Source of the DNA: Halopiger goleimassiliensis | GTDB lineage: Archaea > Halobacteriota > Halobacteria > Halobacteriales > Natrialbaceae | Assembly: GCF_000455345.1 (NCBI RefSeq) | Contig: NZ_HG315690.1 | Span: 2,307,360 to 2,371,359 of the forward strand | Reading direction: 5' to 3' | DNA: 64,000 bases | In this document: piece by piece, positions 51,658 to 63,292 of the stretch | How positions within the stretch are numbered: the first letter of the stretch is position 1 | How the letters are laid out: each line of letters starts with the position of its first letter | Made by a program: the position numbers and the translations under genes | The notes under the pieces: generated by a model | What the model saw: only the letters and a program-made list of their open reading frames with translations | What the model was told of the DNA's origin: nothing | Databases searched by the model: none

Positions 51658-53814
51658 TCACTCCTCCGCGATCCGACTGCCACCCGGCGGCATGAAATGT
51701 TGGATACGATCCGGACTCGCGATCTTCCGGACGAACGCCTCGTCCTCGAAGCGCTCGCGGAACCGCCGGTAGCACCGTTTCGCCGCGTCGGCCTGGGCGT
51801 ACCGACCGGGCTCGAGTTCGATCGTCGTCGCGGCCTGGTCCTCGATGGCCGACGGCGGACCGCCGATGACGCGCGTGTAGGGCTCGCACTGGATGCCGAC
51901 GGCGACGCCGACCGGCGTATCCCGGTAGTACGTGCGGTCGCCGCGGACCGCGAACCCGCCCTTCTCGAGGTACTCGCCGCTTTCGGGGGTCTTCGTCACC
52001 TGGTCGGCGTCGACGGCGTAGACGTCGCCGGCGTAGCGGCCGTCCTTCCAGACCGACGCGTAGGAGACGGCGAACTGGGCGGCTTCCTCGATGCTCGACT
52101 CGGGCAGTTCGATGTCCGGTGAGGACGATTCGCTCGGGTCCGTCGCCTTCAACACGGTGACCGGGCCGCCGTGGGCCTGCGTGTGGAGGACTTTATCGCC
52201 CGGCTCGAGGTACTTCTTGACGAGTTCCTCGTTCTGGTCGGCGTTGCGGCCACCGATCACGAGGTAGTCGTCGCTGGTGTGGAACCACCGAAAGCGGTCG
52301 TACCAGGGTTCGTTCTCCCGGATCGGCACGGAGGCCATCGAGAGCCAGTCGCGATCCGCCTCGTCGTCGTCTTCGTCGTCCGTGTCGGTGTCGTCGGCGT
52401 CGTCGGCCTCCCACCGCTCGCGGCGACGTTTGACCGCCTCGAGGTCCTCGCGGGTGTCCTCGATGGCCGCGAGCGCGCCGTCCTTCTTCTCCTCGACGGC
52501 CTTCGCTTCCGTGTAGAGGCGGTCGGCGTTCTGCTCGACGCCCTGGTCGACCTCGAGGTCGACGTGTGCGCCGTCGACCTCGACCGTCACCGTCCCCTCG
52601 CTGCCGTCGACGTCGACGACGGCCTCGGCCGCCGGGATGCCGCGTTCTTTCCCCTCCTCGAAGCGCTCTTCGATCTCGTCCCACGGGCGGTCCTGCTCGC
52701 GAGCCGTCCGGATCGTCGAGAGGATCTCGTCGACCAGGTCGTAGTGGGCGTACAGCGATTCGGCCTGCTCGCGGAGCGCTTCGGCCTGCTGTTCGAACCC
52801 TTCGATCGCTCCCTGCTGTTGTTCGATGATCCGCTCGTGTTTGGCGATCTCCTCCTCGAAGTCGGGGCGTTGCTCTGTCGGATCCGGCTCCTCCTCCTCG
52901 TCGAGTTCCAGCCGGAAGAAGTAGTCGTCTAACGCCTCGAGGAACGAGTCGTAGGCCTCGGCGGCCAGCCCCTCGGCTTCGTGTTCCTCGAGCGGGAAGG
53001 GGGTGACGTCGACGACGCGTTCCGTCGCAGCTTCGTCGTCTGAGTCTCCGTCTTCGTCGCTCTCGCGCTCGAGGTAGAGCCGCGGGTCGACGTTCCCGTT
53101 CCGGATGTCGAGCGCGAGCCGTTCGATCGCCTCGTAGACCCGATCGTAGACGCCCTCGTCGGCCTCCGCGATGTCCAGGGCTTTCTCGACCCCGGCGCGG
53201 GTACAGAGCTCCTCGGCGTAGAGGCCGCCGAAGTTGAGCTGGGTCGCGAGCGTCCGGACGACGTCCGTATCCGAATCGTCCATCTCGTGGGAGAACGCTT
53301 CCCGCGATATCGTGAGGGGGTTCGTCCGCGTCTCGGGGAACTCGTAGCGCGAGCCGGGCACCACCGTGCGGGACTTCAGCCGGACCGTCTCGAGACAATC
53401 GATCACCTCGTACTCGCCGTCCGTGACCGCGACGTTGCCCTGTCCGAACAGTTCGACGATGATCCGGGTGGTGCCGTCCTCGCGCTCGAAGACGAACTCG
53501 AGGATGCGGTCGAACTCGTACTGCTCGACGCCGACGAAGTCCGCGCCGGAGAGTCGATTCCGGAGCATCATCGCGAACTGCGGCGGCCGCCCCGGGGCGT
53601 CCGGTACCCGCTCGGGGGCGACCGTGTGGGCGCGTTTGACCTCGCCCACCTCGAGCAGCAACTCGACCCGCCCGCGGTCGAAATCCCGCATCTTGAGCCG
53701 GACGAGGTCGTCGCCGTAGAGGTAGGCCTTGTCGACCTTCGCGCCCTCGTAGGCCCCGAGTTCCCTGACGATGGCGGCGAGGTCGACGCTCGTAAGCTCC
53801 CGCTTCGGATCCAT
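51658..53814 (-). CDS. rqcH: ribosome rescue protein RqcH (NFACT family)
   Basis: This 718-residue protein opens MDPKRELTSVDLAAIVRELG with the NFACT-N domain (FAMMLRNRLSGADFVGVEQYEFDRILEF), a helix-hairpin-helix middle, a long coiled coil (about 320-480), and the NFACT-R domain (RFRWFHTSDDYLVIGGRNADQNEELVKKYL, GDKVLHTQAHGGPVTVLKA). It binds 50S subunits carrying stalled peptides and recruits alanyl-tRNA to add a degradation tail in bacteria and archaea. An acidic insertion (DADDTDTDDEDDDEADRDW) is a haloarchaeal adaptation. Confidence 0.94.
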   Translation of the reverse strand: MDPKRELTSVDLAAIVRELGAYEGAKVDKAYLYGDDLVRLKMRDFDRGRVELLLEVGEVKRAHTVAPERVPDAPGRPPQFAMMLRNRLSGADFVGVEQYEFDRILEFVFEREDGTTRIIVELFGQGNVAVTDGEYEVIDCLETVRLKSRTVVPGSRYEFPETRTNPLTISREAFSHEMDDSDTDVVRTLATQLNFGGLYAEELCTRAGVEKALDIAEADEGVYDRVYEAIERLALDIRNGNVDPRLYLERESDEDGDSDDEAATERVVDVTPFPLEEHEAEGLAAEAYDSFLEALDDYFFRLELDEEEEPDPTEQRPDFEEEIAKHERIIEQQQGAIEGFEQQAEALREQAESLYAHYDLVDEILSTIRTAREQDRPWDEIEERFEEGKERGIPAAEAVVDVDGSEGTVTVEVDGAHVDLEVDQGVEQNADRLYTEAKAVEEKKDGALAAIEDTREDLEAVKRRRERWEADDADDTDTDDEDDDEADRDWLSMASVPIRENEPWYDRFRWFHTSDDYLVIGGRNADQNEELVKKYLEPGDKVLHTQAHGGPVTVLKATDPSESSSPDIELPESSIEEAAQFAVSYASVWKDGRYAGDVYAVDADQVTKTPESGEYLEKGGFAVRGDRTYYRDTPVGVAVGIQCEPYTRVIGGPPSAIEDQAATTIELEPGRYAQADAAKRCYRRFRERFEDEAFVRKIASPDRIQHFMPPGGSRIAEE

Positions 53815-53905
53815 ACCGTAGACTGCCCGGCGCTGTCAAAAAGACGTGTCGCTCCTAGTTGCACCGATTCGAGTTCGTACGGACGGACCTGCAGTCGGGA
53901 TTACC

Positions 53906-54168
53906 AACACCACGAAAGCCCCTGCCTCGCTCGACCACCCGGGGCTCGTTGCGGTCCTCGCTTCGCTGCGGTCCTTACGTCGCCCGGGGAGGATCGAGCG
54001 AGGCAGCCCCTTTCATTCCCACCCCGCGGTGGCCAGTCCGGTCAGCCGACACGGGTGGGAATGAAAGGGGCTGGCGCTCTCGGTAGACGAGACGACGCAA
54101 GCACCGGAGTGAAACGAGGAGCGCAGCGAGTCGCAGTCAGCGAGAGCGCCAGGGGCTTTCGTGGTGTT
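53906..54168. repeat. intergenic cruciform element, perfect four-way junction
   Basis: The 470 bases between rqcH and 54285 contain a complete set of nested inverted repeats with no unpaired base at the junction. The outer stem is AACACCACGAAAGCCCC (53906-53922) with its complement at 54152-54168, 17 bp perfect. Arm A is TGCCTCGCTCGA (53923-53934) with 53994-54005. The middle arm is GCCCCTTTCATTCCCACCC (54006-54024) with 54053-54071. Arm B is TGGCGCTCTCG (54072-54082) with 54141-54151. It encodes no protein, and no target-site duplication is visible. The element at 62633-63155 has the same plan. Confidence 0.8.
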
Positions 54169-54284
54169 CTCGAGTACGCGAACCTCGACGATGACGAATC
54201 CAACCGATCTCGAGCAGGAGAGTCGGAACGCCTAACCGGCCCGCTCCCGGACCGTTCGGACATGAACCTCGGTCACGGAGGCCG

Positions 54285-54950
54285 ATGCCCGTGAGCGCGC
54301 CGACGGACCAGCGCGGCTGGCAGGACCTGCTCGAGTTGCCCGAGTTCCTCGACCAGCTCGAGGAGCGCGGCGGACTGCCCGTCATGGAGCTACTCGAGGA
54401 CCTGAACGACCAGGCCGACCTCGGGCTGGAGGCCGACGGCGTCGTCTACCACGACCGCGGGATTCGGGTGCCGGGATACGACGCCACGTTCGTCCACGAG
54501 CGGACGGGCGCACGCGGCCGGCCCGCGTTCAGCGTCGAGATCAACACCGTCGGCCCGCGGAACGCGTGGGCGAAGTTCGACCGGACGCTCGAGTGGGACG
54601 TCTACCTCCTGCGAACAGAGGGGCTGGCGGCTATCGCCTGGCTCAGCGACGAGGAGTACCAGGTCGAGGAGTCCGAGATGTTCGACTCGAAGGAGCAAGC
54701 CGCCCTCGCGGGCCGCTTTTCCTTCGGCGTCTACTGCTACGCCGGCGACGCCTGGGCGGAACAGCGCGAGCGCATCCAGCGCACCGACGCGCCGGCCTAT
54801 CTCCAGCGCGAGGACGGCTCCGTCATGTTGCCCTCGACCCAGTCTGAGTTCTACCAACTGGTCGACTCCTCGCCGACCGAGTTCCGCACCAGCGGCGGCA
54901 ACGCACCCTCCTATCTCGGCGTGCTCGAACTCGAGATCACCATCGACTGA
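54285..54950 (+). CDS. conserved haloarchaeal hypothetical protein
   Basis: This 221-residue soluble protein contains WQDLLELPEFLDQLEERGGL, FVHERTGARGRPAFSVEINTVGPRNAWAKFDRTLEWDVYLLRTEG, AYLQREDGSVMLPSTQSEFYQLVD and a C-terminal LGVLELEITID. I know no family with a function. One Cys (VYCYAGDAW) is present. It starts just after the cruciform element and stands alone. Confidence 0.72.
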   Translation: MPVSAPTDQRGWQDLLELPEFLDQLEERGGLPVMELLEDLNDQADLGLEADGVVYHDRGIRVPGYDATFVHERTGARGRPAFSVEINTVGPRNAWAKFDRTLEWDVYLLRTEGLAAIAWLSDEEYQVEESEMFDSKEQAALAGRFSFGVYCYAGDAWAEQRERIQRTDAPAYLQREDGSVMLPSTQSEFYQLVDSSPTEFRTSGGNAPSYLGVLELEITID

Positions 54951-62481: not shown

Positions 62482-62632
62482 CAGTGCTCGAGTTCGAACC
62501 CGCACTCGTGGCGGCGATGTGTCGCCTGTCTTGTTCAATCCCTGGTGTGGATTTATCGATGGTGCCACGATAGCAGCGGAACGGATGTCAACGTCTGGAT
62601 CGGGCTATCGACGACTGGATCGAGAACGCGAT

Positions 62633-63155
62633 GAAAGCCCCCGGCCATCTCGAGTCGGGGGGCTCGCTGCGCGCCTCGGTCTTCGACCTGCGGTGCTTGC
62701 ATCGCCCGCCTTCCTCGAGATGGCCGGCCCCTTTCAGTCCCGCCCAGACCCTCGTCCTCCCCAGCCGACTTCTGCTCACGGGTGCGCAGCACCCGTTCGC
62801 ATGGTTCGCGGAACCGAAGGTTCCGCGCTAACGCTCACGCTGTTCGCTCGTCCCTCGCGAGATAGCGAGACGACCTCGCATCTGCTCACGGCTCACTCCG
62901 TTCGCCGTTCGCGTTCCGAGGTGCTCCCGTTGGTCGCACCTCGCTTTGCTCGGCCGTCTCGCCAGCGCGCCACTCGGCCGGGAGCGCGGCTCCGCGCCTG
63001 TCACGCGGAGCCGTGCGACCCGGGGAAGGGCAGGCTCCTCCCTGGTGGACTGAAAGGGCGAGCCGCTGTGGCGTAACGTGTAGTCGCCTCAGCGACCCCT
63101 ATCCGCGCTTGCGCGGATATGTCGCTGAGCGACCGCCACAGCGGCGAGGGCTTTC
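62633..63155. repeat. large intergenic cruciform element with hairpin cargo
   Basis: The 811 bases between moeA and 63293 contain this element. The outer stem is GAAAGCCC (62633-62640) with GGGCTTTC (63148-63155). Arm A is CCGGCCATCTCGAG (62641-62654) with 62714-62727. The middle arm is CCCTTTCAGTCC (62729-62740) with GGACTGAAAGGG (63047-63058). Arm B is GCCGCTGTGGCG (63062-63073) with 63134-63145, extended by CTCAGCGAC/GTCGCTGAG and ATCCGCGC/GCGCGGAT. The middle loop of about 300 bases holds short hairpins and two segments also found at 7948-8073. No protein gene is credible inside. Confidence 0.78.
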
Positions 63156-63292
63156 GAGGGGTCCGACGTTCGAGTGCTCGCCGCACTCACGAAAACCAAA
63201 TCGCCAACTCGCTCCCGAAGTGATCGATTCACACCCGAGCTGTACCGACGAGTCACCGTTCCTTTTGCTCGCGGAGCGCCAAACGGGAACCG

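Follow-up and report, generated by a model that had tools for sequence, protein, structure and literature searches.

The perfect four-way junction that an earlier note had described at positions 53906-54168 of the window, a 64,000-nucleotide stretch of the Halopiger goleimassiliensis genome, is the inner portion of a MITE of about 345 bp. We consider it probable that the observations as a whole are best explained by a MITE that is mobilized in trans by a DDE transposase and guided to promoters upon insertion, whose arms are rewritten over time and whose copy in the window is a relic.

Fold, ends and identity of the element

The claimed junction was recovered base for base, with stems of 17, 12, 19 and 11 bp that are all perfect and contiguous and leave no unpaired base at the branch point. 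The outer stem is formed by the inner inverted repeat AACACCACGAAAGCCCC (53906-53922), which is 93% identical among copies, and by GGGGCTTTCGTGGTGTT (54152-54168). It encloses arm 1 (53923-54005; 12-bp stem of 53923-53934 with 53994-54005, loop inside), a central hairpin (54006-54071; 19-bp stem of 54006-54024 with 54053-54071, loop inside), the stem of which is 91-93% identical among copies, and arm 3 (54072-54151; 11-bp stem of 54072-54082 with 54141-54151), an inverted homologue of arm 1 that belongs to a different class. TG at the start and CA at the end of both arms give the junction a sliding range of about 2 bp, and in an alternative reading the outer stem comprises 19 bp.

The chance of such a fold had been called negligible, and indeed none of the dinucleotide shuffles folds equally well (z of -10.3 as DNA and -11.7/-12.1 as RNA). 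Compared to its own reverse complement, the 263-bp segment is an imperfect palindrome (72%) with arms that are inverted relatives, so that a single long hairpin is possible as well; when G-T/G-U pairs are permitted, this hairpin and not the four-way form is the minimum-energy fold. If DNA parameters are used and G-T pairs are excluded, the window copy has its energy minimum in the four-way fold, but the same holds for only 15 of the 35 full copies. The element might serve as a substrate for a Holliday-junction resolvase. In-place inversions of the whole element or of one arm, which were found at orthologous loci (L047 versus L049 and L002 versus L059), would fit such a role without proving it.

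The outer ends of the element, GGCCGTGTTCARATAC... and ...TCTGAACACCGTC, are located about 48 bp outward of the inner repeat, and the motif ATCTGAACAC keeps a constant distance of 34 bp outward from the inner repeat, irrespective of whether a side faces a start or a stop. The terminal repeats of the ~345-bp element are GGCCGTGTTCAGA/GACGGTGTTCAGA. In about ten copies, the ends are flanked by 8-bp target-site duplications that are identical at 8/8 positions (L164, L170, L165 with two, L178, L163 and L141, as well as the full-length copies L076 and L042 of 340/341 bp); in the window's own genome, the duplication at locus L008 reads TTCGACCT...TTCGACCT. The elements are short (80-345 bp) and non-coding with the inverted ends GGCCGTGTTCARATAC / GACGGTGTTCAGA, they are dispersed, and orthologous sites without them exist. 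In genome G089 the outer end occurs 18 times, often in elements of about 80 bp that consist of the two ends alone; these shorter versions look like internal deletions of the full element. Thus, the defined ends and the 8-bp duplications identify a MITE of ~345 bp, of which the 263 bp are the inner portion. In its architecture, two subterminal parts enclose the outer stem, the conserved central hairpin and a pair of hairpin arms that vary.

Target duplications of 8 bp are a mark of DDE transposases, and the element would be mobilized by such an enzyme acting in trans. The earlier note had instead considered TnpA-REP. A REP/BIME-type element, mobilized via single-stranded DNA by this IS200/IS605-like HUH enzyme, would likewise be palindromic, intergenic and multicopy; however, the terminal inverted repeats and the 8-bp duplications contradict this assignment and argue for a DDE-moved MITE, so that we regard a REP as extremely improbable. 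IS200/IS605-type transposition is not known to produce either of these features.

In the window, the whole element is placed at 53863-54211 (about 345-349 bp, +/- 3 bp because the ends of this copy are degenerate), an extent that rests on the 48 bp between inner repeat and outer end in most copies and on the full copies of 340-341 bp with 8-bp duplications. The degenerate left subterminal part (53863-53905; accgattcgagttcgtacgg ~ GGCCGTGTTCAGATACTACC) contains the motif 34 bp outside the inner repeat, as seen on start and stop sides, and the equally degenerate right part (54169-54211; atgacgaatccaaccgatc ~ GTGTAATCTGAACACCGTC) contains it at the same fixed +34 bp. An 8-bp duplication is not visible around this worn copy.

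On the left, the element is followed by a 48-bp core promoter interval (53815-53862, minus strand, with a T-run at 53837-53844), which is kept in relatives both with and without the element, and by the gene of an RqcH-like NFACT-family protein (51658-53814, minus strand; Pfam PF05833/PF05670). On the right lies the gene of a 221-aa protein without Pfam match (54285-54950, plus strand), the orthologues of which come from Natrialbaceae; both genes are transcribed away from the element. A conserved leader ORF of 10 codons (54262-54294, plus strand), whose ATG is separated from the right end of the element by about 50 bp, encodes MNLGHGGRCP and overlaps the start of the 221-aa gene. The empty site L068 and also L084 show an equivalent arrangement, and a role in translational coupling or attenuation is possible. 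With both core promoters intact, the insertion would be tolerated by the neighbouring genes. The window copy itself is probably an old, immobile relic.

Distribution of the family and variation of its arms

Homologous DNA was found in 105 of 125 Natrialbaceae genomes, with about 13 family loci in the window's own genome. As had been claimed for a repeated intergenic element of mobile type, the copies are dispersed in relatives and lie between genes, and their gene neighbours vary from copy to copy. Copies with the same arm plan, whose absence from related genomes would have counted against the earlier note, are present there, and occupied as well as empty sites were found. The site orthologous to the window locus is empty in three relatives with the same two genes and the same core promoter (L068, L070, L071) and occupied in L084, a genome from another genus. 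Other loci are also occupied across genera, with arms that belong to different classes. This persistence across genera could mean that the element is useful.

Positions facing gene starts are far commoner than convergent contexts (n=7). A terminator was rejected as an identity of the element, because it precedes gene starts far more often than it sits between convergent genes.

The repeat at 62.6 kb, which had been taken for a second copy, does share the central stem and the arm style, but belongs to a longer sister family with a different central region. This family (62631-63156 in the window; also L017 and L027) has an identical outer repeat, GAAAGCCC, similar arms, the core stem TGAAAGGG and a central region of about 250-300 bp with conserved stretches of its own (TGAGCAGATGCGA...). 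In addition, a half-element consisting of the core strand and one arm is present in the plasmid records L236, L237, L238 and L239. It is located about 530-590 bp from a gene annotated as 'DNA-binding protein' or hypothetical, its relative place is constant across several haloarchaeal plasmids, and the plasmids concerned carry mating-pair-formation typing; it is perhaps a piece of a replication or transfer region.

For the analysis of the arms, 60 elements were parsed with their inner repeats and core. While inner repeat and central stem show 91-93% identity among copies, the 12-bp arm stems are only 58% identical, and yet 89% of their positions are Watson-Crick paired, as compared to 58% with shuffled partners. 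At one vertically inherited locus in eight genomes, the stem varies by paired substitutions at two positions. Arm 1 is in '+' orientation in 43 of 44 cases and arm 3 in '-' orientation in 45 of 47; the arms are thus inverted copies of one module, which makes the element alike on both strands. Arms of equal class never occur together in any of the 35 full elements, although 7-9 such cases are expected, and chimeras of arms drawn from different elements form a long hairpin in 59% of cases, against 11 of 35 real elements. We infer that pairing may survive sequence change through rewriting of the hairpins by template switching or conversion. On a simple, as yet unproven reading, elements with matching arms would be lost because a long unstable palindrome would form.

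Within the arm loops of many copies (L118, L006, L085, L141, L100 and L117), additional small hairpins are inserted that have perfect stems of 7-9 bp and loops of 3 nt (e.g. GGCGGCTTCGCCGCC and GAGAGACCTTCGGTCTCTC) and recur across elements and genomes. They look like a separate class of mobile or template-switch hairpins.

A structured non-coding RNA, also suggested by the earlier note, might be read from the strong folding of both strands and from the base-pair compensation within the arms. However, the two strands are alike owing to the inverted arm modules, target duplications are present and many copies lie upstream of divergent genes; moreover, an Rfam search of the element returned sub-threshold microRNA matches only and none above the gathering threshold. 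We therefore consider an RNA very unlikely.

Spacing to gene starts and its possible causes

Distances to gene starts were determined with start codons predicted by codon scoring trained on the window, with important cases checked by eye, and not with annotation or RNA data. With descent-related copies cut to one per locus, which leaves a deeper dependence among copies, 31 of 79 independent start-facing sides are 90-99 bp from the inner repeat; the range of 89-100 bp contains 28 of 59 sides, whereas 8.5 are expected for uniform placement and the simulated maximum was 19. As revealed by the motif search, about 48 bp of this ~95-bp spacing are part of the element, so that it is not a pure gap. 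Measured from the true ends, 10 of 30 start-facing sides terminate 47-50 bp upstream of the start codon versus 1.6 expected, a count that reached at most 7 in 50,000 simulations. Counted per element, 20 have a start-facing neighbour no more than 400 bp away, and in 10 of these one side lies at 45-52 bp; about half of the elements fall outside the favoured distance. Distances of 142-151 bp form a second cluster, some 100 bp past the main peak (e.g. L098, L115, L167), which stems mostly from divergent gene pairs whose near side is at ~48 bp and whose far side falls into this range. Stop-facing sides are often 0-40 bp from the stop codon.

Where promoter and start codon differ, the spacing tracks the promoter: on its right side, the window copy keeps a distance of about 50 bp to the conserved leader ORF and not to the predicted start, and at locus V a TATA-like box is found at the usual place, followed by a long leader. 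A+T content peaks at a distance of 66-70 bp to the inner repeat. Leaderless species make up 72% of the protein-coding transcripts in Haloferax volcanii (PMC4983044). As haloarchaeal transcripts are mostly leaderless, position -48 relative to the start codon falls immediately upstream of BRE/TATA. At locus V (L075, L085, L118), a well-conserved stretch of about 145 nt extends beside the element from the promoter-like box to the start codon; it is possibly a regulatory leader RNA.

The ~48-bp spacing in about half of the clear-ended copies suggests that the element is steered to promoters. At insertion, the element would be directed to where the TBP/TFB preinitiation complex has its upstream edge. 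The factors of TBP/TFIIB type by which yeast Ty3 is led to safe sites are also those that archaeal promoters employ. We tentatively put forward that an archaeal machinery reads this complex and inserts a MITE with covarying, mutually avoiding arms so that the element end and the transcription start are 48 +/- 2 bp apart, as a prokaryotic counterpart of Ty3/TFIIIB. A search of the open-access literature for promoter-spaced archaeal MITEs found nothing relevant.

The same MITE could alternatively insert at random between genes, with the -48 spacing made by later selection, since insertions closer than about 45 bp would kill the promoter and short intergenic regions would limit the room further out. 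In line with this, ends nearer than 41 bp to a start are hardly seen, intergenic regions are short and convergent contexts number just 7. A lower limit alone would however lead to a spread and not to a pile-up within 4 bp: when pure selection was simulated, solely as uniform placement with a minimum distance of 40 bp, 1.6 sides were obtained as against the 10 seen. Furthermore, the spacing is present in young copies with perfect duplications (47/48 bp in L042 and 48 bp in L076). Selection on random insertions thus appears unlikely to us, and guided insertion is favoured in view of a peak that spans just a few bases and already exists in such copies.

We assign a similarly low likelihood to the recruitment of the element as a regulatory or insulating device upstream of promoters, for instance as a cruciform that absorbs negative supercoiling, with copies at -48 kept by selection. 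Such a device would agree with loci at which elements have persisted in several genera at equal spacing although the flanks have diverged (the NFACT side measures 96 and 96 bp in L001 and L084) and with stem pairing that is kept despite sequence change. Against it stand the neighbour genes, which vary between copies, the relatives without the element at the same promoter and the many copies that have shrunk to ~80 bp.

Candidate transposase and comparison with known systems

We propose an IS5-family element as the best candidate for the partner of the MITE. It encodes an NF033579/PF01609 transposase, spans 935-980 bp and has the TIR GGCCGTGTTTAGACGC and 8-bp duplications; 13 of its 16 terminal bases match those of the MITE, and the duplication length is equal. 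IS5-family relatives are present in 97 of 125 Natrialbaceae genomes. Neither the candidate transposase nor PF01609 or PF12762 proteins were found in a search of the window's genome, and the copies there are therefore probably relics. In contrast to the MITE, the candidate IS copies have their own target sequences (GCGCCCTG, AGAGCATG), and promoter spacing, which was sought among them, was not seen. Thus, either the MITE is moved by a different transposase, or the candidate transposase does not itself confer the targeting. DDE_Tnp_IS1595 was rejected as a partner, with few matches and ends that do not match. A pattern search of the 125 genomes for long autonomous copies bearing the exact MITE ends found none.

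With prokaryotic MITEs (reviewed in PMC10969869; for Haloquadratum see PMC3119063), the element has in common that it is short, non-coding, intergenic and multicopy, with terminal inverted repeats, target duplications and strong folding. A position directly upstream of genes as well as inversion has likewise been reported for the neisserial Correia element. What sets the element apart from prokaryotic MITEs is its four-way junction core, its covarying arms, of which the two never match, and a distance to the core promoter that about half of the copies keep to within a few bp. SMR-A/B of Haloquadratum walsbyi are also haloarchaeal and short, with inverted terminal repeats and no coding capacity, but according to their description (PMC3119063) they target other mobile elements and have no target duplications. 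Because of its 8-bp duplications, the element was not assigned to the SMRs. The integration of Ty3 with TFIIIB is similarly confined to a narrow stretch upstream of genes, where TBP and a TFIIB-related factor form a complex (PMC8632968). Ty3 is however a eukaryotic retrotransposon connected to RNA polymerase III, and its likeness to the MITE would be one of pattern only.

If promoter-guided insertion is true, the origin and mechanism of transcription-factor-guided transposition would become testable in tractable haloarchaea. Furthermore, a cruciform-prone element at a known place upstream of many core promoters offers a natural test of its effect on archaeal transcription. Finally, the covarying but never matching arms warn against taking base-pair compensation in such repeats as a certain sign of RNA.
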